A DNA stretch of 64,000 nucleotides from Zhongshania marina. GTDB taxonomy: Bacteria; Pseudomonadota; Gammaproteobacteria; Pseudomonadales; Spongiibacteraceae. Each line of letters opens with the position of its first letter. Within the stretch, counting starts at the first letter, position 1. Positions 1 to 16,683 of the stretch are shown here, piece by piece. The notes beneath the pieces are model-generated. The model made no database searches. It was not told the DNA's origin and was given only the letters and a program-made list of their open reading frames with translations. The position numbers were made by a program, and so were the translations under genes. The stretch covers positions 62,001 through 126,000 of the forward strand of contig NZ_PQGG01000040.1 of NCBI RefSeq assembly GCF_002915595.1, written 5' to 3'.

Positions 1-421
1 ACACCTTTAACGACGGAAAACACTCCTTAAGACTCGGAATATCCTCCCAGTGAGTGGTGACTTCGTGGTCGCTAACAACACCCGCAGCGGCAAGTAAAAA
101 TACGCCGGTGCAAACCGACGCAGTCAAGCTTGACTGCGCGGCCTGCTTGCCAATCCATGACAACACCGCGGGCTTAGACATCTCATGGTGATGGACTCCG
201 CCGACGACAATAAGCACATCTATTTGTGGATGATTGCCAAAGTGGTAGTTGGGAATAACCGTAAACCCTGCGCGAGCGCATACAGGGCCATCCGCTTCAG
301 AAACTAAAAACACAGTAAACGGCTGCTCATCGCTCACGCGGGATGCCGTTGAAAACACTTCAAAGGGGCCCGCGAAATCTAAAATTTCGGCATTGCCATA
401 ACAGTAAATACCAATATTCAT
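1..421 (-). CDS. DJ-1/PfpI-family protein, N-terminal part (GlxA-like), cut by the window edge
   Basis: An open frame starts at the ATG complementary to 419-421 and runs off the left edge, giving about 140 residues. It begins MNIGIYCYGNAEILDFAGPF, the usual start of the class-I glutamine-amidotransferase-like domain of GlxA-type proteins. Near residue 115 is SVCTGVFLLAAAG, the nucleophile-elbow cysteine of DJ-1/PfpI proteins, followed by TTHWED, also typical. Family members are either stand-alone DJ-1/PfpI proteins or AraC-type regulators with a C-terminal helix-turn-helix; the part that would decide this is outside the window. It lies 11 bases downstream of the frameshifted glutathione S-transferase gene on the same strand and is probably cotranscribed with it. 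Confidence 0.8.
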   Translation of the reverse strand, partial: MNIGIYCYGNAEILDFAGPFEVFSTASRVSDEQPFTVFLVSEADGPVCARAGFTVIPNYHFGNHPQIDVLIVVGGVHHHEMSKPAVLSWIGKQAAQSSLTASVCTGVFLLAAAGVVSDHEVTTHWEDIPSLKECFPSLKV

Positions 422-432
422 AAGCCGTACCA

Positions 433-1139
433 CTACGCCTGACTGTAATAACGTTTATGGATGTTGCGACAAAAACTAGCGAGGTTTTCATAGCGCCGCG
501 CAATATCATTAAAGTCATTATCAATATCAGCCAAAATAAACTGTGCTAAAAAGCCAAAAACACAGACGTCAAGCACACTCGGTTTGTCGTTAAAGAAGTA
601 GCTTTATTCCCTAAAAGGACCGAGAGGCTATCGAGGCTATATATAAATATTTGCTGTATTTCTGAATCAGAATGACGACCTAGACCCTGCTTATAAATCG
701 CCGAACGAACACTTCTACGCACAATATACGGCACGAAGCGACGCATCGGAAAAGGCAATGATCCAAAAAATGTCGCCCTTGTTAGTGGCCATGTCTGCTC
801 TCTAATCCAACGCGAATAGAGCAAGCACCAATACATATTCTCGTCTAGTGATTTGGCAATTAAATACGCCTGAGCTCGCTGTTCTGGACTTAAGTCCGAG
901 CTCAAGCTCACACCGGGTTTGCTATTTAGATAGTCAAGAATAAATGCCGAATCTGCGATGGTTTTACCACCCTCAACAATATACGGCAGTTTGCCCTTGG
1001 GGGCGGTACGCAGGTTTGCAATTTCAGACTTGCGCTCAAACTCCAAGCCCGCAATGCGCAAATAAACATCAATTTTTAAAACGAAGGGGCTAGCATCTAC
1101 TAGCCCAAAGCCTTCCCCAAATCCATATAAGGTAATCAT
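433..1139 (-). pseudogene. Glutathione S-transferase-like protein, frameshifted near its C-terminus
   Basis: The N-terminal part starting at the ATG at 1139 (MITLYGFGEGFGLVDASPF) has a thioredoxin-like GST N-domain with the cis-proline segment GKLPYIVEGG and then ADSAFILDYL. It resembles the GST_N_4/failed-axon-connections-like group. A GGAGG five bases upstream supports this start. After residues GNK the frame runs into an unrelated tail ending at 546. Shifting frame at about 601-605 restores a convincing C-domain: YFFNDKPSVLDVCVFGFLA, then about 40 more residues to a TAG at 433-435. The total of 707 bases is not a multiple of three, which fits one missing base. The site follows AATAAA, so an assembly or sequencing error is as likely as a real mutation. 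Confidence 0.75.
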
Positions 1140-1172
1140 ATTGCCTCCGTGGCAAATCACCTATGCACATTG

Positions 1173-1610
1173 TTAAGGCCCGTTTAACATGATCCGCGTT
1201 GCCAACTGGACTTCACGTAAAAAGCCACTTAACGCCACAATCAAAAAACACATTGCCAGCACAAATAAAGCCGCCACCACAAGGCTGCTATTCCAACCGA
1301 CAACCGCACTCAAAAACAACAACGCAATAACCACGCAAACTAACAGCGCACTGGCAGTGCTAAAACCTATTGCTCGGTGCACCACTCGCGCCCTGCGGGT
1401 AAGCATGCTTAATTCATCGCGAATCACCATACTCCGCTCTTCGCTTACTGTCTCTAGCCGATGATGCAGATTGCGACTGCGATCAATAATTCTGGCTAAA
1501 CGATTAGTCAATACATTTAAAATTCCACCAATACCCGCCAGCAAGAATACCGGTGCAACCGCCTGCTGTATGGCGTGGGTAATGGTGACGACCTCAATAT
1601 CTACTGCCAT
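1173..1610 (-). CDS. DUF2721 family membrane protein
   Basis: This 145-residue protein has the DUF2721 layout. An N-terminal hydrophobic segment (HAIQQAVAPVFLLAGIGGIL) is followed by the conserved NVLTNRLARIIDRSR stretch, a charged cytosolic region (residues about 45-75), and two closely spaced C-terminal membrane segments (about 82-103 and 108-130). The N-terminal residues plus the Arg-rich NRLARIIDR segment are the family hallmark. No function is established for the family. It lies between the Rieske gene and the GST-like gene on the same strand with short gaps, so cotranscription is likely. Confidence 0.85.
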   Translation of the reverse strand: MAVDIEVVTITHAIQQAVAPVFLLAGIGGILNVLTNRLARIIDRSRNLHHRLETVSEERSMVIRDELSMLTRRARVVHRAIGFSTASALLVCVVIALLFLSAVVGWNSSLVVAALFVLAMCFLIVALSGFLREVQLATRIMLNGP

Positions 1611-1645
1611 TTTATTCCCTAATTTAAGGCCATCTATAGCAGGCC

Positions 1646-2011
1646 TTACAGATGTAAAAAAACTTGTTCGCCTTCACACTCTACTTTGAAAGTTTTTAAT
1701 GCCTGGGGTGATTTTCCCAAAGCAATTAATTTGTGGGTCCAGGTCGGCATTGGCATTCCAATAAATGCATTCGTCCAATCAATATTCTCGCCGTTCAATA
1801 AATCAAAACTGGAGCCGTGGAAAGGACACACTACTGCACCGTCACAAACCTTGCCCTTAGCCAGCGGCAAGCCCAAGTGGGGGCAGCGATTTTCTACCGC
1901 ACAAAGCTGCCCATTCACTCGGCTCAATAATACTTTAGTGCCATTAACGGTTTTACTTAGTAAGGTGTCGTTTTGAATTTCGTCTAGATTTGCAGCAAAA
2001 ATCCTTTCCAT
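1646..2011 (-). CDS. Small Rieske [2Fe-2S] protein
   Basis: The protein carries both halves of the Rieske cluster-binding motif, CPHLG and CPFHGSSFD, with intervening spacing typical of ferredoxin-type Rieske proteins (two Cys and two His ligands). Length is about 121 residues, matching stand-alone Rieske ferredoxins or NirD-like proteins, with no oxygenase catalytic domain. I place the start at the ATG at 2011 (MERIFAANLDE) because GGGGG precedes it at good spacing. An upstream ATG at 2041 and a TTG at 2047 overlapping the Lrp stop are possible but have no good ribosome-binding site. Probable role is electron transfer, partner unknown. It follows the Lrp-type regulator directly, suggesting one transcript. 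Confidence 0.8.
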   Translation of the reverse strand: MERIFAANLDEIQNDTLLSKTVNGTKVLLSRVNGQLCAVENRCPHLGLPLAKGKVCDGAVVCPFHGSSFDLLNGENIDWTNAFIGMPMPTWTHKLIALGKSPQALKTFKVECEGEQVFLHL

Positions 2012-2043
2012 TGTCGCCCCCAGTTCGTCAGTTATTAACATCC

Positions 2044-2523
2044 TCAAGCATTTTGTGACGACAACAAGGGCAGCGAGGTTTTACTCACCGGAGACTTCAT
2101 CACAAAGCTAGAGTGTACGCCGGTAACGCCATCTATTCGAGTGATCTTGTTAAGTAACAAAGCCTGAAATCCGTCCATATCGGCAACAATCACTTTCAGC
2201 AAATAATCCGCCGACTGGCCCGTGATCAAATGGCACTCTAATACTTCTGGATAGTCACCCACATGGCGCTCAAAATTTTCAAAGCGCTCGGGCGTGTGCC
2301 TATCCATACTGATTTGAATAAACGCCATTAAATTCAGACCCAGCGCGCGGGCGTTAAGTACGGCCCGATAAGCCCCAATTAACCCCGCCTCTTCCAAGCG
2401 ACGAACCCGTCGCAAGCACGGAGACGGCGACAATCCGATACGATCTGCCAAGTCCTGATTACTTAAGCGACCATCTTCCTGCAGAGCTTCTAGAATTCGC
2501 CTATCATAGCCATCCAAGTTCAC
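2044..2523 (-). CDS. Lrp/AsnC family transcriptional regulator
   Basis: The 159 residues show the full Lrp architecture. An N-terminal winged helix begins MNLDGYDRRILEALQEDGRL, with the recognition region LADRIGLSPSPCLRRVRRLE (about residues 25-44). It is followed by the RAM effector domain with the conserved VLECHLITGQSADYLLKV core. Family members bind amino acids and activate or repress nearby amino-acid genes. It is transcribed divergently from leuA, which makes control of leuA or of its own promoter a natural inference, but no binding data can be read from sequence. The last 13 residues (SKTSLPLLSSQNA) extend beyond the domain. Confidence 0.92.
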   Translation of the reverse strand: MNLDGYDRRILEALQEDGRLSNQDLADRIGLSPSPCLRRVRRLEEAGLIGAYRAVLNARALGLNLMAFIQISMDRHTPERFENFERHVGDYPEVLECHLITGQSADYLLKVIVADMDGFQALLLNKITRIDGVTGVHSSFVMKSPVSKTSLPLLSSQNA

Positions 2524-2569
2524 TTAAATTCCACCATATCAACAATAAAAGGCATAACATTCTATTTTT

Positions 2570-2591
2570 CTAACATTAATAGCAATATTAG
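2570..2591. promoter_or_regulatory. Imperfect inverted repeat upstream of the lrp-type gene
   Basis: CTAACAT at 2570-2576 and ATATTAG at 2585-2591 form a 7-bp inverted repeat with one mismatch in an A/T-rich stretch. It sits between the divergent lrp-type gene and leuA. Position and base composition fit an Lrp-type operator. This is inference from symmetry only. Confidence 0.3.
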
Positions 2592-2639
2592 ACCAAATAA
2601 GAACGATTTCAAGCTAAAATTCGCAATCTTATGCCAGAC

Positions 2640-2825
2640 CTCTCCCCCTATACTGGGAACCGTGGAGTTATCGCTCCCACCCCTTGTCGAAACGAGCGCA
2701 ACACCCCGCGATCGGGCCGCACAAAACAGCAACTTTTATAAAAAGTGAAACAGGAATACACGGTAAAACGCCCGGCACCCCGGGCCCTGCCACCACACAA
2801 CTTATAGACTTAGGAAATTTTGATC
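2640..2825 (+). promoter_or_regulatory. Possible structured 5' leader of leuA
   Basis: The stretch before leuA contains a perfect 6-bp hairpin, GCCCGG and CCGGGC at 2770-2785 with a CACC loop. It also contains an ACTTTT/AAAAGT hairpin at 2732-2746 and a GTGGAG/CTCCcAC pairing near 2660-2680. No U-run follows the GC hairpin, so it is not a simple terminator. A short frame starting at the ATG near 2631 has no leucine cluster, so classical Leu-codon attenuation is not supported. AGGAAA just before the leuA start is the likely ribosome-binding site. Confidence 0.3.
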
Positions 2826-4517
2826 ATGGGCGAATTCAACCACCGCAAATATCGGCCTACGCCGGTCATCGCCATACCAGACCGCCAGTGGCCCAACAAC
2901 AGCATCGAACAAACACCACAGTGGTGCTCAGTCGATTTACGCGACGGCAATCAAGCCTTGGTTGAACCCATGAACGTGCAGCAAAAACTGCGTATGTGGG
3001 ATCTATTAGTCAAACTCGGCTTCACCCAAATTGAAGTGGGATTTCCCGCAGCATCGCAGCCGGACTTCGACTTTGTGCGCGCGCTAATCGACGGCAACCG
3101 TATCCCCGACAATGTCACAGTTCAGGTGTTGACTCAGGCCCGCGAAGAATTGATCGCCCGCAGCTACGAATCACTAAAAGGCGCAAAGAATGCCATTGTG
3201 CATGTATACAACTCCACCAGCCCAGTACAACGTGAACGGGTTTTCGGCCTAGACAAACAAGGCATTATCGACATTGCTATTCAAGGCGCAAAATGGGTGA
3301 AGGAGTACGCCGCTAGGCAGCCAGAAACCAACTGGTCATTCCAATATTCACCAGAAAGTTTCAGCAGCACAGAAGTTGATTTTGCCGTAGAAATTAGTGA
3401 TGCCGTCATTGCCGAATGGCGCGACAGTGGAAACCCTATCATTATTAATTTGCCGGCAACGGTGGAATGCGCCAGCCCCAATGTATTTGCAGATCAAGTG
3501 GAGTGGTTCTGCCGCAACACCCGCTACCGCAAAGACATTACCGTGTCTGTGCATACCCACAATGATCGCGGCTGCGGTGTCGCTGCGGGCGAGCTGGCGG
3601 TAATGGCCGGTGCCGATCGGGTTGAAGGTACGCTACTGGGCAACGGCGAGCGCACAGGCAATATGGACATTGTCACTATGGCGATGAACCTTTACAGCCA
3701 AGGCGTAGATCCCGGCCTGAATTTGGCCGATATGGACGAAATTATTGCCGTGGTAGAGCACTGTACAAACATACCGCTGCATCCGCGCCACCCCTATGCG
3801 GGGGAGTTGGTATTCACGGCATTTTCAGGAAGCCACCAAGACGCCATCCGCAAGTGCCTGAGCAAGCAGCAGGACGATGAGCACTGGCAGGTCGCCTATC
3901 TGCCGATTGACCCCGCTGATTTAGGACGCAGCTACGAGGCGGTAATTCGCATTAATAGCCAATCAGGTAAAGGCGGCGTGAGCTGGGTATTGGAGAATGA
4001 CTACGGTCTGCAACTACCGCGCTGGCTACAAATTGACGCCAGCCGAATGGTGCAAGCTCGAGCAGAGGAAATTTCTGGTGAAGTGACGTCCGCGCAAATA
4101 TGGGATTTATTCGACGCCCACTATCTGCAGGCCAAACAGAATATATCTATTCAGAATTTTTCAGTTAGTCAGGACAATTCTGAAAATGGCGGCCAAGACG
4201 TATTAAGCCTGAGCTTTAGCGACCGGCGTGGCAGCACCACGCTCAAAGGCCATGGCGACGGCGCAATCAGCGCCTTGGTTGACGCATGGCAAAACGAGTT
4301 TGGTGACAAGATTGAAATACTGGACTACCGCGAACATGCGCTAGGTACAGGCACAGACTCGCAGGCCATCGCCTATGTGCACCTGTCGATTAACAAGCAA
4401 CGCTATATTGGTATCGCCAAACACCGCGATGTTATTTCAGCTTCACTGCAGGCAGTACTAAATGCCTCAGTACAGGCTGCAAACATCTCTGCAAACGCAG
4501 AACGTATGGCAAGCTAA
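2826..4517 (+). CDS. leuA: 2-isopropylmalate synthase
   Basis: This enzyme condenses acetyl-CoA with 2-oxoisovalerate to 2-isopropylmalate, the first committed step of leucine synthesis in the cytosol. The 563-residue protein matches the long LeuA form of pseudomonads. It has the KYRPTPVIAIPDRQWP N-terminus, the HMGL-like barrel signature WCSVDLRDGNQALVEPM (residues 33-49), the metal-binding HTHNDRG, and GTLLGNGERTGN. A C-terminal LeuA dimerisation/regulatory domain containing LGTGTDSQAIAYVHL follows, where leucine feedback usually acts. I take the ATG at 2826 rather than the TTG two codons earlier; AGGAAA lies 9 bases upstream. A strong terminator follows, so it appears monocistronic. A divergent Lrp-type regulator is a candidate controller. 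Confidence 0.97.
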   Translation: MGEFNHRKYRPTPVIAIPDRQWPNNSIEQTPQWCSVDLRDGNQALVEPMNVQQKLRMWDLLVKLGFTQIEVGFPAASQPDFDFVRALIDGNRIPDNVTVQVLTQAREELIARSYESLKGAKNAIVHVYNSTSPVQRERVFGLDKQGIIDIAIQGAKWVKEYAARQPETNWSFQYSPESFSSTEVDFAVEISDAVIAEWRDSGNPIIINLPATVECASPNVFADQVEWFCRNTRYRKDITVSVHTHNDRGCGVAAGELAVMAGADRVEGTLLGNGERTGNMDIVTMAMNLYSQGVDPGLNLADMDEIIAVVEHCTNIPLHPRHPYAGELVFTAFSGSHQDAIRKCLSKQQDDEHWQVAYLPIDPADLGRSYEAVIRINSQSGKGGVSWVLENDYGLQLPRWLQIDASRMVQARAEEISGEVTSAQIWDLFDAHYLQAKQNISIQNFSVSQDNSENGGQDVLSLSFSDRRGSTTLKGHGDGAISALVDAWQNEFGDKIEILDYREHALGTGTDSQAIAYVHLSINKQRYIGIAKHRDVISASLQAVLNASVQAANISANAERMAS

Positions 4518-4526
4518 TGTTCGAGG

Positions 4527-4566
4527 AAAAAAAAGCCGCGCTGCAGTCATTCGGCGCGGCTTTTTT
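4527..4566 (+). terminator. Rho-independent terminator of leuA
   Basis: AAAAAAGCCGCGC pairs with GCGCGGCTTTTTT around a loop of about 12 bases, ending in a T-run. It lies 10 bases after the leuA stop. The A-run on the other side makes it usable for the convergent gene as well. Confidence 0.92.
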
Positions 4567-4605
4567 CATCGTCAAATCTCAAAATAAAATCAAAGCGATA
4601 ACGCT

Positions 4606-5622
4606 CTATTTCTCTTTTCTCGCCTTAATGTTCACCACCGCCTGAAACCCATCCTGATTGTCGGTAATCGACATATCAGATACCGAATACTTAGAATCAC
4701 TAATCACCAAACCCACACCCGCCCGCACTCTCACTCGGCTAGTGATCGGCTTTGCCTGCCTAGCAAAATCCTTTGGTTTAATTTGATAATCGTCGGCTAT
4801 ATCAATGCCGGTACTGCTCGCCACACCAGATATCACCTCAGATAGCGCTTCGGAATCAATATATTGCGAGGAGATATGCTTTAGCTCACCTATCGAAGTG
4901 AGCTCGGCAGACTTTATCTTCTCGGTAATTTCCTTATTCAGTTCGGCGATATCTTGGGTATCTTCTATTTTGGAGCTGACCCCCTTCAAAATTAAGCCGC
5001 TCAACTTGGCATAAGATTTTGATGTTGCCCTTGGCGATACCTTCAAAAATGACTCCATCCAATACTTTGTTTTTTGGCCAAGATTGTCGACAACAAACAC
5101 ACCTTGATCATTAGGAAGGATTAGCGCGCCCTTCTGTATTTTATTTAAAGAAATACCGCTGCGCTCAAACATATCAAAGGAGTCCGATGACTCCACAATC
5201 TCAATAAAATTGTCTTTATTCTCAATCTTTAGCACGGCAAGTGCATTCGACGCAGTTTCATTATGCTTTATTCCAGCAAACTGCAAAAAAATCAGGTCGC
5301 CGCCCGAAATGTTTTGGTGGGTAGACGTGGCATACAAATGCTTTGCAATAGCCTGAGTGCTGTTCAAAAATTCACCAGATGCATTGAATATTTTTCCAGC
5401 AATATTCGCCACAGTATTCAAGGAAATATCTGACTCATGAAAAAAATCGTATATCTCGCTTTGCTTAGAAAGCGGGAGTAAGTAGTGCTTAATAAGCAAC
5501 TCACTCAAAGACTCATCAGCCGTCGACTCCTTCTCAGCAAGACGCATCCCCTCTTCACGCGCCTTGCTTCCCACCCGATGCACTGCAATATGTGTCAGCC
5601 GCGCAGAACTTACATCAATCAT
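4606..5622 (-). CDS. Nucleoid-associated protein, NdpA/YejK-like family
   Basis: The 338-residue protein resembles the PF04245 (37-kDa nucleoid-associated) family, in the variant I associate with Bacteroidota and assorted accessory loci rather than E. coli YejK. Recognisable blocks are ARLTHIAVHRVGSKAREEG at the N-terminus, FFHESDISLNTV, AKHLYATSTHQNISGGDL, IENKDNFIEIVES, and YWMESFLKVSPRAT. Known members bind the nucleoid; a biochemical activity is not well defined. It is flanked by leuA (convergent) and a 350-base non-coding stretch, so it looks like a single-gene unit. Its codon use and A/T content look a little different from leuA, which could reflect acquisition, but I cannot quantify this. 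Confidence 0.75.
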   Translation of the reverse strand: MIDVSSARLTHIAVHRVGSKAREEGMRLAEKESTADESLSELLIKHYLLPLSKQSEIYDFFHESDISLNTVANIAGKIFNASGEFLNSTQAIAKHLYATSTHQNISGGDLIFLQFAGIKHNETASNALAVLKIENKDNFIEIVESSDSFDMFERSGISLNKIQKGALILPNDQGVFVVDNLGQKTKYWMESFLKVSPRATSKSYAKLSGLILKGVSSKIEDTQDIAELNKEITEKIKSAELTSIGELKHISSQYIDSEALSEVISGVASSTGIDIADDYQIKPKDFARQAKPITSRVRVRAGVGLVISDSKYSVSDMSITDNQDGFQAVVNIKARKEK

Positions 5623-5970
5623 ACAATCCCACTCATGTTTAGTTTAAATCCTTGCATGTGGCGCTTCCTGCATTCTTAGTATTGCGCAAACAAACATTTG
5701 AGAATCAGTATGCGGGGAAACTGGTAAAGTGAGTAGATTACAGACCACTCGCGCTATTTCCAGAATATGCAGGAACGCCTCGCGGAAAATACCACACAAC
5801 TCGGCACATCACACCGCTAGGGAAAGAAAATTGAGTAATTTTTGAAATACGGAAGCTGAATATTGAAACAGTAGCGCTACTGCCGTATATAGAGCCTGCC
5901 CGACTCCTGCTAAACCTATATTAGAAATTCCGCGCCATAAAATGCTTAACGAAACATATAGGATAAATAG
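5623..5970. other. Non-coding stretch with one perfect palindrome
   Basis: No convincing gene is visible on either strand. A perfect 14-bp palindrome, CAGTAGCGCTACTG, occupies 5869-5882. The right part lies downstream of the minus-strand gene ending at 5971 and the left part is the upstream region of the NdpA-like gene, so it should hold that gene's promoter; I cannot place one with confidence. Confidence 0.4.
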
Positions 5971-6423
5971 CTACTTTTCCTCGTCAGGCGGTAACACGGG
6001 CTTTATCCGACGCGCCTTCATGTCTATGCCCGCTCTCGTCAAATAGCCTGCGGCCTTATTTATACCTCTAATCGAGGTGTATACAGATTCTGAGATCAAA
6101 TCGTGAGTTTGCCTAACTATTCTTGTTGTATCTCGAGTTGCAGCAAACGACTCAAGCGTATCGAAAGGAATTTTTGCGATTCCCATATGGACACTACGGA
6201 CGGTAGCGGTACTAGTATCTATAACCGTTTCCGTAAAGTCCTGCGCTGACTCCAATTGACGATGCCAGTCTTCCTGGTAGCGCAATTCAAGTAAGCTGGC
6301 GGCGTCCTCACGCAAACGAAGAGAGAACGCTTTTATATTGCACTCATGCCTCCACAGGGAAAAAGATGAAATTCCCGCCAAGAGCACCGCTGCTACACAT
6401 AGCAAAATATCAACCCAAACCAT
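5971..6423 (-). CDS. Small single-pass membrane protein of unknown function
   Basis: The 150-residue product begins with one strong hydrophobic segment (VDILLCVAAVLLAGISSFSLW, residues about 4-24). A long, largely helical, charged soluble region with many Glu, Arg and Ser/Thr follows, ending in a Pro-rich PVLPPDEEK tail. I recognise no family. It overlaps the upstream gene ending at 6410 by 14 bases, so the two are almost certainly translated from one transcript and may form a pair. The topology predicts an inner-membrane anchor with a soluble domain. Confidence 0.6.
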   Translation of the reverse strand: MVWVDILLCVAAVLLAGISSFSLWRHECNIKAFSLRLREDAASLLELRYQEDWHRQLESAQDFTETVIDTSTATVRSVHMGIAKIPFDTLESFAATRDTTRIVRQTHDLISESVYTSIRGINKAAGYLTRAGIDMKARRIKPVLPPDEEK

Positions 6424-6781
6424 GAATACTTATCTCCGCCTGCACGCCTCTTTCTTCAAGCTGACCGCGCATAATTTCCACAGTACGTTTATACACTATG
6501 CTGCGAATCACATCTGGTGCAAAATTATTTAATAGCCCAGCAAATACTGATTCTTTTGTCGCCAGCTCAACCGGATTTAATATTTTAATCGCAATAAACC
6601 CCTTGCCTTCTGACACCGGAATTTGATTAAAATCAACAGGATTAGCCCTCCACGCTTTGGCTAAAGCACGCTGTTCGTCCTGAAGCGTCAATAACAGGCG
6701 GCGCTGTGCATTCAGCCTAACTAATAAATAAGTAATAACTATTAAAAGTAATGCAAATAGAGCTAATGAAAAATAATACAT
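6410..6781 (-). CDS. Small membrane-anchored protein of unknown function
   Basis: Taking the ATG at 6781 (MYYFSLALFALLLIVITYLL) gives 124 residues with an N-terminal transmembrane helix. A short coiled-coil-like stretch rich in Arg, Leu and Gln (RLNAQRRLLLTLQDEQRALA) comes next, then a soluble domain with alternating hydrophobic residues (GKGFIAIKILNPVELATKES). A longer version starting at 6847 adds a basic, non-membrane leader and looks less likely. It overlaps the next gene by 14 bases. No family is recognised; the architecture mirrors its neighbour, suggesting partners in the membrane. Confidence 0.6.
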   Translation of the reverse strand: MYYFSLALFALLLIVITYLLVRLNAQRRLLLTLQDEQRALAKAWRANPVDFNQIPVSEGKGFIAIKILNPVELATKESVFAGLLNNFAPDVIRSIVYKRTVEIMRGQLEERGVQAEISIHGLG

Positions 6782-6926
6782 AGATTTCCTCAATAAATTA
6801 TCACACCGCCTATACAAGGCAGCAGAGTTGGCGCTCTTTAGCCACAATATACATCTTTATAAACACTCCCACCTATCTAAACAGGTCCAAAGAATGAGAT
6901 AAGATAAAAACTTTAACACCATAACA

Positions 6927-6964
6927 AAAAATGCGTGAGGCACTCTTCGCGCCTCACGCATTTT
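6927..6964 (-). terminator. Rho-independent terminator downstream of the DUF445 gene
   Basis: AAAATGCGTGAGGC pairs perfectly with GCCTCACGCATTTT over a loop of about 9 bases. Read on the minus strand it ends in TTTTTTG, directly after the stop codon at 6989. It separates the DUF445 gene from the two small membrane-protein genes. Confidence 0.88.
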
Positions 6965-6988
6965 ATAGCTCCCTTTACACCAAGAGGG

Positions 6989-8221
6989 CTACCCCAAATA
7001 TGTAAATAAAATTAGCTGAGCAATACCAACACAACAGCCTAGTGCAGCACCCACCAAAATCAAAATCCATTCATCTTCTTTAAATGCTGGCCGCAGCATA
7101 TCTTCAAAATCTGGTGGCGGAAGCACCTCAAGCTGAGAAGCCAAGGTATTAGCGAGATCCATGGCGTCTTTTGCATAAACATCAATTGATTTAACTGCAT
7201 CTGGTAGCCTTTCAACCAAACGTTCTGCAGCTACTTCTTTAATTTTTACATACTGGCGAGTACCTACCGTCCAAGCCACAAAGGGACGAGCGATACCAGA
7301 TTGGTCATCAATAACACGTTTTACGTGACGGGCAATCATCATAAATACTCGGTCAGAATACGGACCTTTTAACACGGCTTCAATGATGTTGCTCGGTGTA
7401 ACAATTTCGTCAGCAATGAGTCGAGCATAATCGCGAGAAACCTCTTTTTGGCGCTTATGGAAAATACCATGTAGCTTCCATGGCCCTAATCGCATTGGCG
7501 ACTGAGGTTGGAAAATCATCCGCAATGCCACCACATTAGTGCAATACCCCACTAACAGACCAAACAATGGCAGCTGCCAATCTGCTTTATAGAACATCCA
7601 TCCGAGCATTTGAAAAAAGCCAAACAAGCTGCCGAAATATAACCCCGACACACCGATGAATTTAAATTCCTCACTACCCGTTTCTTGAAATATACGATTG
7701 ATAAGTGCTTTATCTCGCACCAAGGTGGTAACCACCATATCTTTTAAATCGAAAACATTTTCTATGTCATTTCGCAGATCCTTCATCACCTCTGCTACGG
7801 CAGCCGGCGAATCGGCTTGAATGCGATGTATGATGAGATCTTTTGCCGCACGCGGCAGTGTTTCCCATATGCCTGGCTCAAATTCAGACATAATCTCTTC
7901 AACCATATGGTTGACCAGATTGATAATAGGCCCCTCAATTTCTTCAGCAACACGAACTGGGTCAAGCCGATCAAAAACTTCCCTCTCGGTAATCAAGCGG
8001 GGAACAATCGTATCTACCGCAATACTCGCCATTTTTCCGGCTTTGCTAGGAATAATTCCCTGCCAACCCAAAATTGGTGGTTTACCAACAAATTCCAGTG
8101 GCGAAAACATCATTTTGATTGCCACCACATTGGTAATAAAGCCAACGACGCCACTCGTTATGGGCATAGATAAATAAAGCACCCAGTGCGCTGAAAATTC
8201 TAACCATACGGCCTCTAACAT
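6989..8221 (-). CDS. DUF445 family inner-membrane protein
   Basis: This 410-residue protein matches the DUF445 (YheB-like) family. It opens with a membrane segment leading into the family signature GVVGFITNVVAIKMMFSPLEF (about residues 25-45), followed by GIIPSKAGKMA. The same signature recurs mid-protein as GYCTNVVALRMIFQPQSP with a second GIFHKRQ element, so the protein is an internal duplication, as usual in this family. A final hydrophobic segment (ILILVGAALGCCVGIAQLILF) closes it. Function is unknown. The Abi-alpha-like gene lies 41 bases upstream on the same strand, so they form a likely two-gene operon ended by the terminator at 6927-6964. Confidence 0.9.
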   Translation of the reverse strand: MLEAVWLEFSAHWVLYLSMPITSGVVGFITNVVAIKMMFSPLEFVGKPPILGWQGIIPSKAGKMASIAVDTIVPRLITEREVFDRLDPVRVAEEIEGPIINLVNHMVEEIMSEFEPGIWETLPRAAKDLIIHRIQADSPAAVAEVMKDLRNDIENVFDLKDMVVTTLVRDKALINRIFQETGSEEFKFIGVSGLYFGSLFGFFQMLGWMFYKADWQLPLFGLLVGYCTNVVALRMIFQPQSPMRLGPWKLHGIFHKRQKEVSRDYARLIADEIVTPSNIIEAVLKGPYSDRVFMMIARHVKRVIDDQSGIARPFVAWTVGTRQYVKIKEVAAERLVERLPDAVKSIDVYAKDAMDLANTLASQLEVLPPPDFEDMLRPAFKEDEWILILVGAALGCCVGIAQLILFTYLG

Positions 8222-8261: not shown

Positions 8262-9008
8262 TTATTGATCTTCGACGTTACATATATCCCAAAATAAGTT
8301 GCCAGCTCGACTAAGCTTCAGCGTCTTGCGATCACATCGAAGACGAAAATACCCCGCCTTCTGCGCGACGCCTAACGCCTCCATTACATCACTATTTGCT
8401 TCTAACACTTGATAATCTAATTCAAATTCAGAGTTAATCGCGCCAAATTCAATTAACCCCAAAGCATTGAGATTTGAGAGATAGACCGGCATTAAATCCC
8501 GTACTTTGACCCTCGCAGGTTTAACAACGGAGGAAATACCAGACAGTAATATTTCGCGCTGACCAGTTAAGGTCTGTGAGCCGCTAACACTTATGACCGC
8601 GTGACCACTGCCGTCGGACAAAGCAGATAAAATCCTCACTTCATCGGCAACTATGTGATCCAGAACTCGATTCGCCCAACTACGTACGGACTCTTCTTTG
8701 CTCTGCTCCATAGCGTCCTGCATCATAAATTGTAGACGCTGCGCGGGGGATCTAGGTTGAATAGGATCGGAACAGCGGTCACTTCCAGCAACTGTTTTTT
8801 CATTACTAGCCGCTGAATCAGGCCCTCCTAGCAGCCCGCTGTTTTGCGGCTCACGCGAGACAGCGCGCCGCAAACGCCGGTGAAGAGTTTGAAGCATCGC
8901 ATCTTCAACCACTTCATATTCACGCTGAACAAAGTCCGCACCAGGCAGACGTTCAGCACTTTCAGATATTTTGCGGGCAAGTTTGACAAGTTGTTCAGTA
9001 GTGCGCAT
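8262..9008 (-). CDS. Abi-alpha (DUF4393)-like protein
   Basis: The 248-residue product shows features I associate with the Abi-alpha/DUF4393 family. A helical middle region contains MEQSKEESVRSWANRVLDHI, then DEVRILSALSDGSGHAVISV (the family's 'ariL.al' segment), NLNALGLIEF, and a C-terminal LSRAGNLFWDICN that matches the family's ending 'LT.fGr.F..ac'. Residues 50-80 are low-complexity and variable. Members are sometimes annotated as abortive-infection proteins, but most are not tested, and here it sits next to DUF445 rather than other defence genes. I prefer the ATG at 9008 to the TTG at 9020. The gene is upstream of, and probably cotranscribed with, DUF445. Confidence 0.55.
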   Translation of the reverse strand: MRTTEQLVKLARKISESAERLPGADFVQREYEVVEDAMLQTLHRRLRRAVSREPQNSGLLGGPDSAASNEKTVAGSDRCSDPIQPRSPAQRLQFMMQDAMEQSKEESVRSWANRVLDHIVADEVRILSALSDGSGHAVISVSGSQTLTGQREILLSGISSVVKPARVKVRDLMPVYLSNLNALGLIEFGAINSEFELDYQVLEANSDVMEALGVAQKAGYFRLRCDRKTLKLSRAGNLFWDICNVEDQ

Positions 9009-9060
9009 AAGTAAAGCCAACAGTTATTATTTATCATTCGGCAGTAAACACTGACACCTT

Positions 9061-9161: not shown

Positions 9162-9578
9162 ATGCCGAAGAGAAAGCTTGGTGAGTTTATTTCCGAGTTT
9201 GCCAAAGCACTTAGTGATATCAACTTTAACCATATTGTTACCACCAGGATGCTACCGACTATATACGTAGCTGGAATCATATTTGCTGCTCTTCTTGCTC
9301 TGTCTTTAGCGGTAAGCTCATGGGAATCGAACAGCTGGCCTGCACGCCTAATTTGGTCATTTGTCTTTTCCCCAATGCTTTTTATTGGCCTGGTAACCAT
9401 TTGGCGCGTCATTTTAGAACTCTGCCTATCCATTTTTGAAATGACCGTCGTGGTTCGTTCATTGCACACCGAGCTAGAAAAAGTCTCTGGGGTTACCGAC
9501 GAAATTGCCACCGATCTTCCTAGAATCCAGTTTTGGAAAACACGCAAACAAAGTAATAGCTCAAAAAATCAAAAATAA
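9162..9578 (+). CDS. DUF4282 domain-containing membrane protein
   Basis: The 138-residue protein follows the DUF4282 pattern: a short polar N-terminus (SEFAKALSDINFNHIVTTRM), a first membrane helix (about residues 33-53), then a second helix and the conserved ending FIGLVTIWRVILELCLSIFEM. A charged C-terminal tail rich in Lys, Asn and Ser follows. GGAGG precedes the ATG at proper distance. An open frame on the opposite strand covers the same bases but lacks coding character. It is the first gene of a plus-strand run, 33 bases before the DUF1302 gene, so it probably belongs to that operon. Function of the family is unknown. Confidence 0.8.
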   Translation: MPKRKLGEFISEFAKALSDINFNHIVTTRMLPTIYVAGIIFAALLALSLAVSSWESNSWPARLIWSFVFSPMLFIGLVTIWRVILELCLSIFEMTVVVRSLHTELEKVSGVTDEIATDLPRIQFWKTRKQSNSSKNQK

Positions 9579-9611
9579 ACACCTAAAAACAATAAGTAAG
9601 GGGATTTTATT

Positions 9612-11747
9612 TTGGCTAAATACCGTACCGTCATATTCACGGTATCTCTGCTTTCCGGCCTACTCCACGCCGAAGTAGAGAGTGAAACACCGATTGACCT
9701 GAACATACCCAGCTCGCCAGCCGTAAAAGTGTCGTTTGATAACGTATTAATGTGGAGCGTCGGCTTCCGAGTAGAATCCCCCGACCCAGACATGATCGGC
9801 AAAGTGAGCCTTGAGCAGAACCGCAATTTATGTGCTGCTGACGATTGTATTGGGCTGTCTAGAAATGACACAGCGCCGAATGAACGCTTTATGGCGGCCA
9901 GAGGATTACTATCCTCTAACACCGACGACGGCAACCTAAATTATGATGCAGGCGATCCTGTCCTTGGGTTTCTAAAATGGGACTCTCGGCTATCACTTGG
10001 CTTTGAAAATTTCGACGTAGAGATCAGCTGGCAATATCTATTCGATGCCGTGAACTACGGCTTTGAAGAGTTCTATAGCAATCAAATTGTGAGTCCCGGA
10101 ACCCAGCCAGGCCAGGCAACCTACCGTGATCGCCCAGAAGAAACCGAAGCCGCAATCGGCCAATTTATTGACTTGCGGGACGCATGGGTGTCATTTCGCA
10201 TGCCAATTGGCGAACGCGAAGCCGACATTAAAATCGGCCGCCAACTCCTAAATTGGGGAGAGTCCACCTTTGTATTACGGGGCAACCTAAACTTTATAAA
10301 CCCCTACGAAACCAATAATTTGTTCCGTCCCGGTTTTGAATTAGAGGAAATTTATCGCCCCGTCGGGCTAGTCAATTTTGACATGGCATGGTCGGACCGC
10401 CTGCGAGTTCAAGCCTTTTACCAGTTTGAATGGTTACCCTACGGCCTGCCAGCCAAGGGCGCTGTCTACTCATTTTTAGACGCTGGCAACGAGGTCACCC
10501 ACAACGAATCCGTGGTACTGCCATTTGCAAAAACACCCAATGATCCAGACCAACTTCAGACCCCTGCAAGCCCTTTGCTATCCCTAATTTCGGGCACCAG
10601 TTTTAGCGCCCGCCGCGCCCCCAACCGTGAAGCAAAAGACGGCGGTCAATTTGGCGTAGGCTTACGCTATTTTCGGGACGACTGGTTTGACGGCACCGAA
10701 TTAGCAGTATTTTTGGCCAATTATCACGCTCGCATCCCGAGCTTAAGTGGCTACGCGGCCGATGCCTCCTGCACTCGCCGTGAAGGTAATGGCCGCGGCG
10801 TTGATACCAGCAATATCGCTGAATTTTTGATTGACTGCGGGATCCCCCTTCTAAATACACCAGGCCAAGATTTTGAAGCACTGCCCCTAGACACTTTCCG
10901 CTACTTTCTTGAATACCCAGAAGACATCCACCTCTTGGGCGCCACCTTTAATATTGAATCGAGCGGTATTCTCTACGGCGGGGAATTTGCTTACCGGCAC
11001 AACCAGCCCGTTCAAGTCGATCTCGAAGACATTATCTTTGCCGGTCTACAGCCCGCATTCCCCAGACACGACATTTTAATCATACCGGGAACCCTGCCAG
11101 GACTGCCTGCCGCAACTATTCCCGCCTCGCAAACCGCACTACCCGACTACGTAACCAGCTATCGCGGCGGCACCGCTGGCGAAATTGCCCCCAACGCATA
11201 TATTCGTGGCTACGAATCCGAGCAAACCGTACAGCTCACCCTTACCGCAACGAAACTGTTCGGCAATCGCAGTTCATTTTTAGGCTCCAAGCAGTTTGCA
11301 CTCTTGGCTGAGGTACAGGGTATTTGGGTGCCGGGCCTGCCATCACTCGATCAATTGCAATATGAGGGGCCAGGTACCCACACCCACGCCAGTCCAGGTA
11401 CAGCAGACACCGGTAACGGTTCATTACTGAACCCCATACGTAATGAAGGAGGCTATGTAAGCGAGTTCTCTTGGGGCTACCGATTAACCGCAATAGGCTC
11501 ATTTGACCTTCCCATCAAAGGTGTAGAAATGCGACCTCTACTGGTTTGGCTGCACGACATTGAAGGCGTCAGCCCAGGCTTTGCGGAGAACTTTCTTGAA
11601 GGACGTCAGATTGGTATTTTCCAAGTTGATTTTCGTCGCGGCCCCTGGACTCTAGGCACTACCTATAACTTCTTCGGCGGCGGCGGAGACCGCAATGCAT
11701 TTAGAGACCGAGACTTTATGTCGATGTACCTACGCTACAAATTCTGA
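9612..11747 (+). CDS. DUF1302 family outer-membrane protein
   Basis: The 711-residue protein has a signal peptide (MAKYRTVIFTVSLLSGLLHA, cleavage expected after residue 20). Its long beta-rich body has DUF1302 landmarks: RLSLGFENFDVEISWQYLF, WVSFRMPIGEREADIKIGRQ with LLNWGESTFV, and GVGLRYFRDDWFDGTELAVF. It ends MSMYLRYKF with a terminal Phe as in BAM substrates. It starts at a TTG with an AAGGGG ribosome-binding site. DUF1302 proteins are outer-membrane proteins found with lipid, alkane or steroid catabolism genes, usually beside a DUF1329 gene; no DUF1329 gene is present here. Instead two anchored repeat proteins follow after 17 bases, suggesting a different partner set. Role in passage of hydrophobic substrates is inference. 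Confidence 0.9.
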   Translation: MAKYRTVIFTVSLLSGLLHAEVESETPIDLNIPSSPAVKVSFDNVLMWSVGFRVESPDPDMIGKVSLEQNRNLCAADDCIGLSRNDTAPNERFMAARGLLSSNTDDGNLNYDAGDPVLGFLKWDSRLSLGFENFDVEISWQYLFDAVNYGFEEFYSNQIVSPGTQPGQATYRDRPEETEAAIGQFIDLRDAWVSFRMPIGEREADIKIGRQLLNWGESTFVLRGNLNFINPYETNNLFRPGFELEEIYRPVGLVNFDMAWSDRLRVQAFYQFEWLPYGLPAKGAVYSFLDAGNEVTHNESVVLPFAKTPNDPDQLQTPASPLLSLISGTSFSARRAPNREAKDGGQFGVGLRYFRDDWFDGTELAVFLANYHARIPSLSGYAADASCTRREGNGRGVDTSNIAEFLIDCGIPLLNTPGQDFEALPLDTFRYFLEYPEDIHLLGATFNIESSGILYGGEFAYRHNQPVQVDLEDIIFAGLQPAFPRHDILIIPGTLPGLPAATIPASQTALPDYVTSYRGGTAGEIAPNAYIRGYESEQTVQLTLTATKLFGNRSSFLGSKQFALLAEVQGIWVPGLPSLDQLQYEGPGTHTHASPGTADTGNGSLLNPIRNEGGYVSEFSWGYRLTAIGSFDLPIKGVEMRPLLVWLHDIEGVSPGFAENFLEGRQIGIFQVDFRRGPWTLGTTYNFFGGGGDRNAFRDRDFMSMYLRYKF

Positions 11748-11764
11748 ACAGTGGAAACCCTATA

Positions 11765-12529
11765 ATGATAAAAACAAAACAACATCAAACCGGTATTTCA
11801 ACCATCGCCCTACTCCTTAGCACCTTAGCCGTCGGCGTCATTATTGGTGGCGGCCTTGGTGCCGCATGGACAATCAAAAATGTCGAAGCGCGTCTATTGC
11901 TTCACGAGCAACCCGCCGACATCAGGATTAACGACGCCCTCATGGTGCGCGCACGCGTATTGAATCAGCTGGATATCAGTATTAATGAAATGATCCGCAC
12001 TCAGGTACCCATCAATAAAGATGTAACCGTACCGGTAAATGAAACCTTAAACCTGATGGCTGCGATAAAAACCCGCGTACCCGTCGAGCTCACTGTTCTC
12101 GTTAACGACGTTATTACCATTGATCAAGTTCTTGACCTTGATGCGGTCGTTGAAGCAGAAGTGCTCGGGGAAATCATCGACATTCCAATTCGTGGCAAAG
12201 TACCAGTAAGAGCAGAGGTCCCCATTAGCCTAAAGATTCCCGTGCGCGAAAATATTCCCGTTGACCTACTAACACCGGTAAAAGCTGTACTAAAACAAGC
12301 CTTAACAGTACCGCTTAATACAGTAATCGACGCCGAAATTCCCATTCGCAGCAATATGAGTGTTCCTGTGCACTCAGATATCGAGGCTAAGTTATTTCTA
12401 CCCAAAGAGGATATTAAGGCCACCATCACCTACGCCGACCTAAATATTCCACTGAACACGCTAAAATTAGGTCTTAGCGACGAAGACTCCCCCGAGCGAC
12501 GCGATGAAGACAAGAAGGAGTCCGAATGA
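11765..12529 (+). CDS. Membrane-anchored Val/Ile-Pro-Val repeat protein, copy 1
   Basis: The 254 residues start with a short basic N-terminus and one Gly-rich transmembrane helix (ALLLSTLAVGVIIGGGLGAA, about residues 15-34). About 190 residues of strictly alternating hydrophobic and polar residues follow. They are punctuated about a dozen times by VPV, IPV, VPI or IPI, for example TRVPVELTVLVNDVITIDQV and GKVPVRAEVPISLKIPV. The pattern predicts a long beta-structure in the periplasm. The end is highly charged (ERRDEDKKESE). I recognise no family. It lies 17 bases after the DUF1302 gene and overlaps its paralogue by ATGA. The shape is reminiscent of elongated beta-groove lipid-transfer proteins, but that is inference only. 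Confidence 0.8.
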   Translation: MIKTKQHQTGISTIALLLSTLAVGVIIGGGLGAAWTIKNVEARLLLHEQPADIRINDALMVRARVLNQLDISINEMIRTQVPINKDVTVPVNETLNLMAAIKTRVPVELTVLVNDVITIDQVLDLDAVVEAEVLGEIIDIPIRGKVPVRAEVPISLKIPVRENIPVDLLTPVKAVLKQALTVPLNTVIDAEIPIRSNMSVPVHSDIEAKLFLPKEDIKATITYADLNIPLNTLKLGLSDEDSPERRDEDKKESE

Positions 12530-13239
12530 AAATTCTTTCACCCCGCGGTCTTCTATTGCTGCTTCCACTAACGCTGGCAATCATCATCGCTGGCACTTGG
12601 GCCGGCACTCAGCTATTTCAGTTTGGCCTGATCAAACTCACACTGAGCGAGCAAGATATAAAAGTCCGCCTTCCCCCACAACTAAACGCGTCGATGGAGA
12701 GCACTCGCCCCCTCGACATTCAACTCAATGGAGATATCAGCACGGTAGTGCCGTTTAAAGAGGTTCTGGATGTTCCCTTCAAAGGTGAGTATCCGGTTAA
12801 CGTCAAATTAGACGCCAATATCCCAGTTGCGTTTGAAGTCGTCTACGAAGGTATTATTCCCGTAGATACCATGGCGGCGATAACCGCAACAACGGAAATT
12901 AATTTCGGCAATGTAAAAAAACTGCGCAATCTCAAAATTTCCACCTCGATTCCGATGAAGTTTGATCTGCCAGTTAATTTACGCGTACCGGTAAAAGACA
13001 ATATCCGCTTTAATTATAACGGCCCTATTACCGTCTACGCTGACGAGATGCTACAACTACCGGTAGACACCGTTATTGAGACAACAATAAATGTCGACCA
13101 GAGAGTATCAACACCGGTAACGTCGCGCCTAAATCTCGTCGCCGAACTACCTCAAGAAGAGGTATCAGCTACGATTGTTCACTCGGAGCTGAACCTCAGG
13201 CCGGCCACATTACAACTCCTAAAAAAGGAGACTAAATAA
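12526..13239 (+). CDS. Membrane-anchored Val/Ile-Pro-Val repeat protein, copy 2
   Basis: This 237-residue paralogue has the same build as the preceding protein. An N-terminal transmembrane helix (LLLLPLTLAIIIAGTWAG) leads into a beta-rich repeat region with about ten Pro-Val-type steps, such as GEYPVNVKLDANIPVAFEV and FDLPVNLRVPVKDN. Both proteins end with a comparable block, here LPQEEVSATIVHSELNL and in copy 1 LPKEDIKATITYADLNI, so they arose by duplication. Translation is coupled to copy 1 by an ATGA overlap. Its last 8 bases overlap the end of the convergent monooxygenase gene. No family is recognised. Together with the DUF1302 protein it could form a conduit across the envelope. Confidence 0.8.
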   Translation: MKILSPRGLLLLLPLTLAIIIAGTWAGTQLFQFGLIKLTLSEQDIKVRLPPQLNASMESTRPLDIQLNGDISTVVPFKEVLDVPFKGEYPVNVKLDANIPVAFEVVYEGIIPVDTMAAITATTEINFGNVKKLRNLKISTSIPMKFDLPVNLRVPVKDNIRFNYNGPITVYADEMLQLPVDTVIETTINVDQRVSTPVTSRLNLVAELPQEEVSATIVHSELNLRPATLQLLKKETK

Positions 13240-15825: not shown

Positions 15826-16683
15826 ATGAAAACTACAACTCTAGCTGTAAAACCTGTACGTCGTGATCTGCGCTTTACATTCGACAGCAAACGCATGACT
15901 AACTGGCACCCCGACGGCCCCCATGCCAGCAATTTTTACAACACACTATCGGTGTTCTTTCCCGAAGGTGAACAGTTCTTTATCGACTCAGTACGTCACT
16001 ACCGCGACAAAAAACAAATCAACAACAAAAAATTACTGGCGGAAATAAGCGCATTTATTGGCCAGGAAGCAATGCACGGCCGCGAACATCGTGACTACAA
16101 TGCTGCAATCGCAGCAGCCGGCTTGGGCGGCGAGCAAATGGATGCCTTTGTTGGCAAATTACTGCAAACCATGCGCAAAATCCTACCGCCGTCAATGCAA
16201 CTTGGTGGCACCTGTGCACTAGAACACCTTACCGCCTCACTCGCGGGCTATATCCTTGAGGACGAAAGTTTTCTAGAAGGTGCAGATGAACATATGGCGG
16301 CAGTGTGGCAGTGGCATGCGCTTGAAGAAACTGAACACAAAGGCGTGTGTTATGACGTGTACGAGCATGTAGTGGGCCAAGACACCAAGGCCTACGCTAT
16401 TCGCGGTAGCTCAATGATCATTGCCATGAGCATTTTCTGGAGTAGCGTGTTGCCATTCTGGCTTTATATGAACTACCGTTCAGGAGCGATGACTGACCTC
16501 AAAGGATGGCGTGCTGGTGGTAAAATCTTATTTGGTCGCAAAGGTATTCTGCGACATTTTTCAAAAGACTTTATTGACTACTTCCGTCGAGACTTCCACC
16601 CTTGGGATCATGACAACTCGGCACAGCTAAAACGCCTAGAAGCCCTAGCGCAACGCTTTGCACCGCCAGCTAAAGCTGCCTAA
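15826..16683 (+). CDS. PF10118 metal-dependent hydrolase family protein, copy 1
   Basis: The 285 residues belong to the COG3687/PF10118 family, annotated as predicted metal-dependent hydrolases. Ferritin-like di-metal motifs are visible: GQEAMHGREH, LEHLTAS, and WHALEETEHKGVCYDVY, i.e. repeated Glu and ExxH ligands on a helical bundle. A hydrophobic stretch (SMIIAMSIFWSSVLPFWLYM) suggests membrane association. AAGGAAG precedes the ATG. True chemistry is unproven; the ligand pattern would also suit a di-iron oxygenase or desaturase-like enzyme. It is cotranscribed with the SDR, and a second copy of the family lies at 17830-18819. A hairpin after the gene probably ends the two-gene transcript. 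Confidence 0.88.
   Translation: MKTTTLAVKPVRRDLRFTFDSKRMTNWHPDGPHASNFYNTLSVFFPEGEQFFIDSVRHYRDKKQINNKKLLAEISAFIGQEAMHGREHRDYNAAIAAAGLGGEQMDAFVGKLLQTMRKILPPSMQLGGTCALEHLTASLAGYILEDESFLEGADEHMAAVWQWHALEETEHKGVCYDVYEHVVGQDTKAYAIRGSSMIIAMSIFWSSVLPFWLYMNYRSGAMTDLKGWRAGGKILFGRKGILRHFSKDFIDYFRRDFHPWDHDNSAQLKRLEALAQRFAPPAKAA

Follow-up and report, generated by a model that had tools for sequence, protein, structure and literature searches.

Directly behind the gene for a DUF1302 outer-membrane protein in Zhongshania marina lie two genes for membrane-anchored proteins, here called A and B. The question raised by this locus is what kind of proteins A and B are, and whether they belong together with the DUF1302 barrel. 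The window, i.e. the whole stretch of 64,000 nucleotides that was analysed, had been interpreted before from its letters and open reading frames; this sequence-only reading proposed a four-gene unit, in which A and B form a long periplasmic beta-structure reaching from the inner membrane to the DUF1302 protein, as a conduit for hydrophobic molecules handled by the neighbouring monooxygenase block.

The four-gene row in the window

The row and its two divergent neighbours are as follows (positions in the window):

6989..8221, minus strand: DUF445 membrane protein gene, divergent neighbour (PF04286, 1.9e-16)
8262..9020, minus strand: Abi_alpha-domain gene, divergent neighbour (PF14337, 6.2e-22)
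9162..9578, plus strand: DUF4282 membrane protein gene, first of the row, 138 aa (PF14110, 1e-12)
9612..11747, plus strand: DUF1302 gene, putative outer-membrane barrel by family, TTG start, 711 aa (PF06980, 1.8e-122, residues 11-711)
11765..12529, plus strand: protein A gene, A-type predicted anchored giant beta-hairpin, 254 aa
12526..13239, plus strand: protein B gene, B-type predicted anchored giant beta-hairpin, 237 aa

The four genes are tied together as described earlier: the gaps measure 33 and 17 bases, and the last two genes overlap by ATGA at 12526-12529. The DUF4282 and DUF1302 assignments are confirmed by Pfam matches that both lie above the cut-offs, and the family match also makes the DUF1302 product a probable outer-membrane barrel; its signal peptide is recognised by eye only. 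A and B each have a single N-terminal hydrophobic helix, and the C-terminal block that they were said to share is one end of a similarity that spans from the membrane helix to this block. 3' of B, an FMO gene on the opposite strand runs towards it, and the two genes share 8 bases at the end of B.

The same arrangement, DUF4282 included, is found in a sister species (genome G017, locus L014), and the gap between DUF1302 and A is 17 bases in both Zhongshania species. Comparison of the window with this locus gave dN 0.116 and dS 1.37 for DUF4282, 0.033 and 0.91 for DUF1302, 0.075 and 1.07 for A, and 0.057 and 0.82 for B. Purifying selection acts on all four genes of the row between the two species.

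A and B as one new family

A and B share 26% identity over 214 columns (E=2e-23); they are homologues and form two subfamilies of a single new family. Neither has a Pfam match at E 1. For B, nothing was found in Pfam, NCBIfam or PHROGs; for A, nothing in PHROGs or PDB sequences and nothing over the cut-off in NCBIfam, where a single match lies far under its cut-off. The set analysed consists of 63 proteins of at least 200 aa, A being one of them, with shorter and X-holding proteins excluded. A profile of the family (A4, which leaves out two very long N-terminal extensions and an X-holding row) gave one unrelated chain in the PDB at E 0.79. Thus, profile searches with the repeat proteins lead to no named family among the libraries scanned. 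The 52 members scanned have no MCE or AsmA-type Pfam match at E 0.01, and the neighbours in the window none for MCE. No account of the family was found in the literature, partly among the best matches listed and with search terms other than locus tags. One Acinetobacter baumannii record labels its A-type protein (L084:8923-9657) 'MFS transporter', for which the protein sequence gives no support.

Predicted fold

The AlphaFold model of A (52 aligned sequences; mean pLDDT 68, pTM 0.35) has a helix at residues 13-39, main strands at 79-133 and 136-190, and shorter strands outside these. The model of B (23 sequences; mean pLDDT 63, pTM 0.24) has a helix at 6-33 and strands at 52-127 and 130-207. 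Each protein appears to consist of a membrane helix and one long beta-hairpin, at low to moderate confidence; the pairing of the two long strands as a hairpin is our reading of the strand list of the models. The predicted parts are the following, with the charge pairing described below:

11801..11881, plus strand: A membrane helix, residues 13-39 (AlphaFold/DSSP)
11912..12163, plus strand: A predicted hairpin arm 1, about residues 50-133 (model strand 79-133; charge pairing to residue 54)
12164..12169, plus strand: A predicted hairpin tip, residues 134-135, Leu-Gly (model turn; G135 in 26 of 26 A-type rows)
12170..12409, plus strand: A predicted hairpin arm 2, about residues 136-215 (model strand 136-190; charge pairing to residue 215)
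12541..12624, plus strand: B membrane helix, residues 6-33 (AlphaFold/DSSP)
12679..12906, plus strand: B predicted hairpin arm 1, residues 52-127 (model; charge registers 257 and 259)
12907..12912, plus strand: B predicted hairpin tip, residues 128-129 (model)
12913..13146, plus strand: B predicted hairpin arm 2, residues 130-207 (model; charge registers 257 and 259)

The models of the single proteins agree with the sequence-only reading in that both appear anchored, non-globular and built of very long beta-structure. The nearest PDB structures by Foldseek are lysenin, aerolysin, iota-type pores, the phi29 tail axis and the flagellar LP ring, at TM-scores of about 0.1. Lysenin has the best E-values (0.04 for A, 8.3e-4 for B), and only one match, for B, falls below 0.001, with none for A.

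Sequence regularities of the arms

The hydrophobic/polar alternation had been described as broken at VPV-like steps. This does not hold: the hydropathy autocorrelation of the 63 proteins still has period 2 at lag 40, where shuffled sequences give about zero. A and B of the window have a single phase flip in the middle, at residues 137 and 134, and small reversals only near the ends. A model with one flip outdoes each of 300 shuffles in all 63 proteins. The flip lies near the centre in A-type rows and, among B-type rows, only in the two Zhongshania and L123; in other B-type proteins, the phase mostly runs on or flips away from the centre. A phase flip by itself is thus no proof of a hairpin.

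The two faces of the A arms are sharply different, with a hydrophobic fraction of 0.75-0.78 on one and 0.10-0.13 on the other. Prolines are found mostly on the polar face, with 374 of 387 in the arms of A and 256 of 294 in those of B, and their most frequent successive spacing is 6 (246 cases versus 57 in shuffles). The arm length is nearly invariant. In A, G135 follows the Q49 column at a distance of 86 residues in every one of the 26 rows, and P229 follows G135 at 93 (22 rows) or 94 (4 rows); the two corresponding spans in the 23 B rows are 87-90 and 91-92. G135, P82, P147, P153, P159, P193 and P229 are invariant in all 26 A rows, each of which has the membrane helix, the two arms of near-fixed length and the glycine at the tip. 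Within the arms, hydropathy peaks at lags 18 and 36 are seen family-wide; as a guess, the 18-residue period might come from the twist of a two-stranded ribbon.

Charge registers argue for a hairpin

If the two halves of a hairpin are paired, polar residues that face each other should be oppositely charged at one constant sum i+j. In the 26 A-type rows, i+j=269 gives 182 opposite versus 10 like charges, the best of 250 registers (z 8.3), followed by a register with 67 opposite and 18 like. This sum is the one predicted by the turn of the model of A. As that model was built from the same alignments, the charge test is not wholly independent of it. The rows are related by descent, but the other registers carry equal relatedness, and the ratio at 269 is 99:6 when each 60% cluster is reduced to a single row (14 rows) and 63:4 (z 7.6) with rows below 45% identity (9 rows). 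The opposite-charge pairs in A extend from 132/137 to 54/215, past the long strands of the model, and the pairing length comes to about 79 residues per arm. The 23 B-type rows have two competing registers: the sum 259 is best (137:21), followed by 257 (83:18), the latter being the register of the model for B of the window. Taken one by one, many members but not all have the expected register as their best, and four members that occur alone have no common register. Taken together, the models and the charge registers support an anchored long beta-structure for A and B.

A different fold would also place prolines at regular distances: A and B could be beta-solenoids or AsmA/TamB-like grooves, in which short strands run across the axis and hexads build 18-residue coils. 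The proline spacings of 6 and 12 and the hydropathy peaks would suit such coils, and among the 52 members scanned one matched Bactofilin (1e-5; member and cut-off status not displayed) and two weakly matched LEA_2. However, coils stacked in parallel should pair charges at a constant difference, and no such register is comparable to the hairpin registers; the best ratio is 190:119 for A and 87:39 for B, and the i+18 register is unfavourable in both (117:162 in A, 98:125 in B). AlphaFold gives two long strands instead of coils or a groove, albeit at limited confidence, and when ten members were scanned singly, all their Pfam matches lay below their own cut-offs. The solenoid is thus disfavoured by the charge registers, and we regard it as quite improbable.

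The hairpins could also stand side by side and, like those of lysenin or aerolysin, close into an oligomeric beta-tube of great length, whose hydrophobic face would point to the lumen or to a membrane. The nearest PDB folds, long-hairpin pores and rings, point in this direction, but TM-scores of about 0.1 mean a likeness of long hairpins and no fold match. Prolines on the polar face would take away outward hydrogen bonds. Within A, no register other than 269 comes out strong, and the search for an edge register between A and B gave nothing firm: across 22 A-B pairs and six kinds of scan, none was clear, the best being A2-B2 parallel at shift 2 (73:25), in a scan that addresses edge pairing and not face-to-face packing. 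The tube therefore seems unlikely to us, although not as far-fetched as the solenoid.

Distribution and tandem arrangement

With A as the query, matches were obtained in 4 of 57 genomes, its own included; within the genus, only Z. marina (G000) and the sister species matched, out of 18. By profile searches, 8 of the 293 genomes sampled from the order have the family. It is present in 5 of 46 genomes of family f43, all of genus g94, in 5 of 44 of family f38, all of genus g77, in 2 of 2 of family f7, and in 30 of 149 of family f35, 28 of these with at least two matches. Genus g115, within f35, accounts for 22 of the matching genomes; it is termed Acinetobacter-like, because its neighbour genes match an A. 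baumannii record in size and order. In broader samples, 4 of 369 genomes of the class matched; without two that were judged to be false, the own genome and G312 remain. In the phylum, 7 of 398 genomes matched, and only the same two look real. Rejected matches are those of G445 (a Pro-Glu-rich, TonB-like frame), G547 (a stretch antisense to a 2,024-aa ORF) and L079-L083 from the phylum sample (no family-like ORF among plus-strand ORFs with a start codon). A tblastn search of plasmid records gave four, all A. baumannii; two exceed 3.9 Mb and are chromosome-sized. An A-B pair with 98.8% identity is also found in two records named as Acinetobacter phage, which may be host contigs.

Of 36 loci beyond the window, 26 have A and B in tandem; the two genes are -4 to 12 bases apart in 25 of these and 76 in one. 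The remaining 10 have one copy or a fragment. Two of these ten (L121 and L122) are an A-type and a B-type gene about 92 kb apart in one genome, G1186, so the two genes need not adjoin. Six genomes have a single copy at the locus (L012, L013, L031, L032, L070, L076); four of these represent, by alignment, a form with an additional repeat segment and lack DUF1302, DUF4282 and DUF445 in the stretches fetched. Two g94 genomes carry a third copy, A-type, 3' of the pair (L066:11457-12221 and L067:12216-12983), separated from it by a gene that looks LysR-like by eye.

Neighbour genes and the DUF1302 association

The loci were fetched with flanks of mostly 8-10 kb on the left side, shorter at contig ends (L129, L130 and L074 among others). 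In these stretches, DUF1302 and DUF4282 occur at only 1 of the 36 other loci, that of the sister species (L014); the other 35 have neither, and the FMO gene is missing from the same 35. Earlier neighbour calls had used a longest-ORF rule, by which some genes were lost under antisense ORFs, and a recheck without this rule (1,313 ORFs of at least 80 aa) gave the same result for DUF1302, DUF4282 and DUF445. Of the 293 genomes sampled from the order, 79 contain a DUF1302 match at 1e-20 and 8 the A/B family, with an overlap of 7. Five of these 7 have the two on different contigs; in the two Zhongshania alone they lie together. The association is thus lost in relatives, an outcome that the sequence-only reading itself had counted against its proposal. 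The conserved four-gene unit has to be given up, and the DUF1302 link of the A-B pair is local (2 of 18 genus genomes, 1 of 36 other loci). Of the proposed structure reaching to the DUF1302 protein, the anchored long beta-structure stands, on the models and the charge test, and the conserved unit with DUF1302 does not.

It had also been stated that DUF1302 proteins are usually paired with DUF1329, and this fits the cases at hand. Around DUF1302 places, ten stretches were fetched, and six neighbours (L168, L169, L170, L173, L174, L175), preselected for a DUF1329-like look, are all DUF1329; the neighbours in L171 and L172 were outside the family scan. The second DUF1302 gene of the Z. marina genome (L166, G000:C42:21001-35000, 342-7618) lies in a row of MMPL, DUF1329, YCF48 and DUF1302 genes, which we liken to AmeABCD. 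The genome has one more DUF1302 place, a weak one (L003/L167), which was rejected, as its ORF shows no barrel gene. Near the row of the window, neither DUF1329 nor an RND/MMPL pump was found among the ten neighbouring proteins scanned.

The neighbour that does recur is DUF445, in 7 of the 36 other loci (L014, L029, L066-L069, L123) and in three genera counting that of the window. Abi_alpha is found in six of these loci (L014, L029, L066-L069), so that Abi_alpha and DUF445 recur side by side near the pair, also in g94; in L123, DUF445 is alone, 3' of B and on the same strand. A DUF445 match is present in 25 of 33 family-bearing genomes, by a search that missed the copy of the window itself at its E-value. 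Given these numbers, chance adjacency in three genera seems unlikely. Relatives of a predicted metal-dependent hydrolase (PF10118) were seen in the window (15826-16683) and in 5 of the 36 family stretches (L014, L123, L126, L128, L131), in three genera and within about 7 kb of the pair.

The varied settings of the pair bring up another possibility, namely that A and B serve as a general strut or ruler of the envelope without a transport function, with DUF1302 and DUF4282 as chance neighbours in two Zhongshania. Elsewhere the pair is kept beside unrelated genes, e.g. between a glyceraldehyde-3-phosphate dehydrogenase gene and obgE in A. baumannii (L084), the arm length is near-fixed, and DUF1302 adjoins it in so few genomes of the genus. 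However, the spacing between DUF1302 and A is identical in both species, and a long hydrophobic face would seem costly for a mere strut. We consider the strut somewhat unlikely, but the most serious of the alternatives.

Proposed mechanism

From the predicted fold, we infer how A and B may be oriented, packed and extended, what they may dock to, and what lipid-carrying or conduit role they might have. The reading that we prefer, and to which we give about an even chance, is that A and B are anchored hairpins that span the periplasm, packed face to face, with DUF1302 as a possible local docking partner. The N-terminus would be cytoplasmic and followed by a single inner-membrane helix and an amphipathic antiparallel hairpin of about 80 residues per arm; the chain would leave the inner membrane, turn at the tip (Leu-Gly in A) and return. 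With a rise of 0.33 nm per residue in a beta-strand, about 79 paired residues would measure about 26 nm, and as the periplasm is roughly 20-25 nm wide, this would be enough to put the tip of A near the outer membrane. The prolines on the polar face, with the position of their NH facing away from the partner strand, should guard the free edges against further sheet formation. The Val/Ile face needs burial, for which the usual tandem partner is the natural candidate. Hairpins of A and B, one pair or several, may thus be packed by their hydrophobic faces into a periplasm-spanning rod or sheath that would hold the tips close to the outer membrane. For Zhongshania, the barrel encoded in the same row may be the docking partner in this membrane.

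A more far-reaching version would make the A-B hairpins a trans-periplasmic hydrophobic slide, which replaces the soluble DUF1329 shuttle and passes lipophiles between the inner membrane and the DUF1302 barrel in Zhongshania, with other outer-membrane partners in Acinetobacter. We think this improbable; if true, it would be a lipid bridge of paired single beta-hairpins running along the bridge axis.

Comparison with known systems

The trans-envelope bridges considered here, including those of TamB and YhdP, are built of grooves, rings or helical tubes. A and B differ from them in the predicted use of one hairpin with strands along the long axis, in about 240 residues only, and without an MCE or AsmA-type Pfam match in 52 members. 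With TamB/YhdP/YdbH, MCE proteins such as PqiB, and the Veillonella MlaD, they would share an inner-membrane anchor, a proposed span of the periplasm and a hydrophobic surface; as far as the parts of PMC10665443 used here describe MCE proteins and the Veillonella MlaD, these form grooves, rings or helical tubes, none from a single long hairpin. DUF1302-DUF1329-RND/MMPL export sets, such as AmeABCD and PP_0765/PP_0766/PP_2018/PP_2019, have the DUF1302 barrel in common with the window, and their partners handle hydrophobic compounds, according to the parts of PMC6394551 and PMC10866462 used here. The window differs in having predicted anchored hairpin proteins, with no DUF1329 or RND pump among ten neighbours.

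Very long hairpins, as predicted for A and B by models and charge register, are also found in lysenin, aerolysin and the flagellar LP ring. A and B differ in their membrane anchor, their proline-lined polar face and the lack of detectable homology, and their arms are presumably longer. To our knowledge, these would be among the longest single beta-hairpins. TonB-type proteins are anchored proline-rich rods with periplasmic reach and regular prolines; A and B resemble them in both respects, but are predicted to form a beta-hairpin and not a polyproline helix.

In the absence of any match to bridge profiles or entry in the libraries, we call the architecture new and leave function aside: what is new is the protein architecture of A and B, as modelled. 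The predicted hairpins are held to almost fixed length, and a single Acinetobacter-like genus has at least 22 genomes that carry the family. If A and B span the periplasm, they would be a new type of envelope-spanning part, and the meeting of A-B with the outer membrane would become directly testable.
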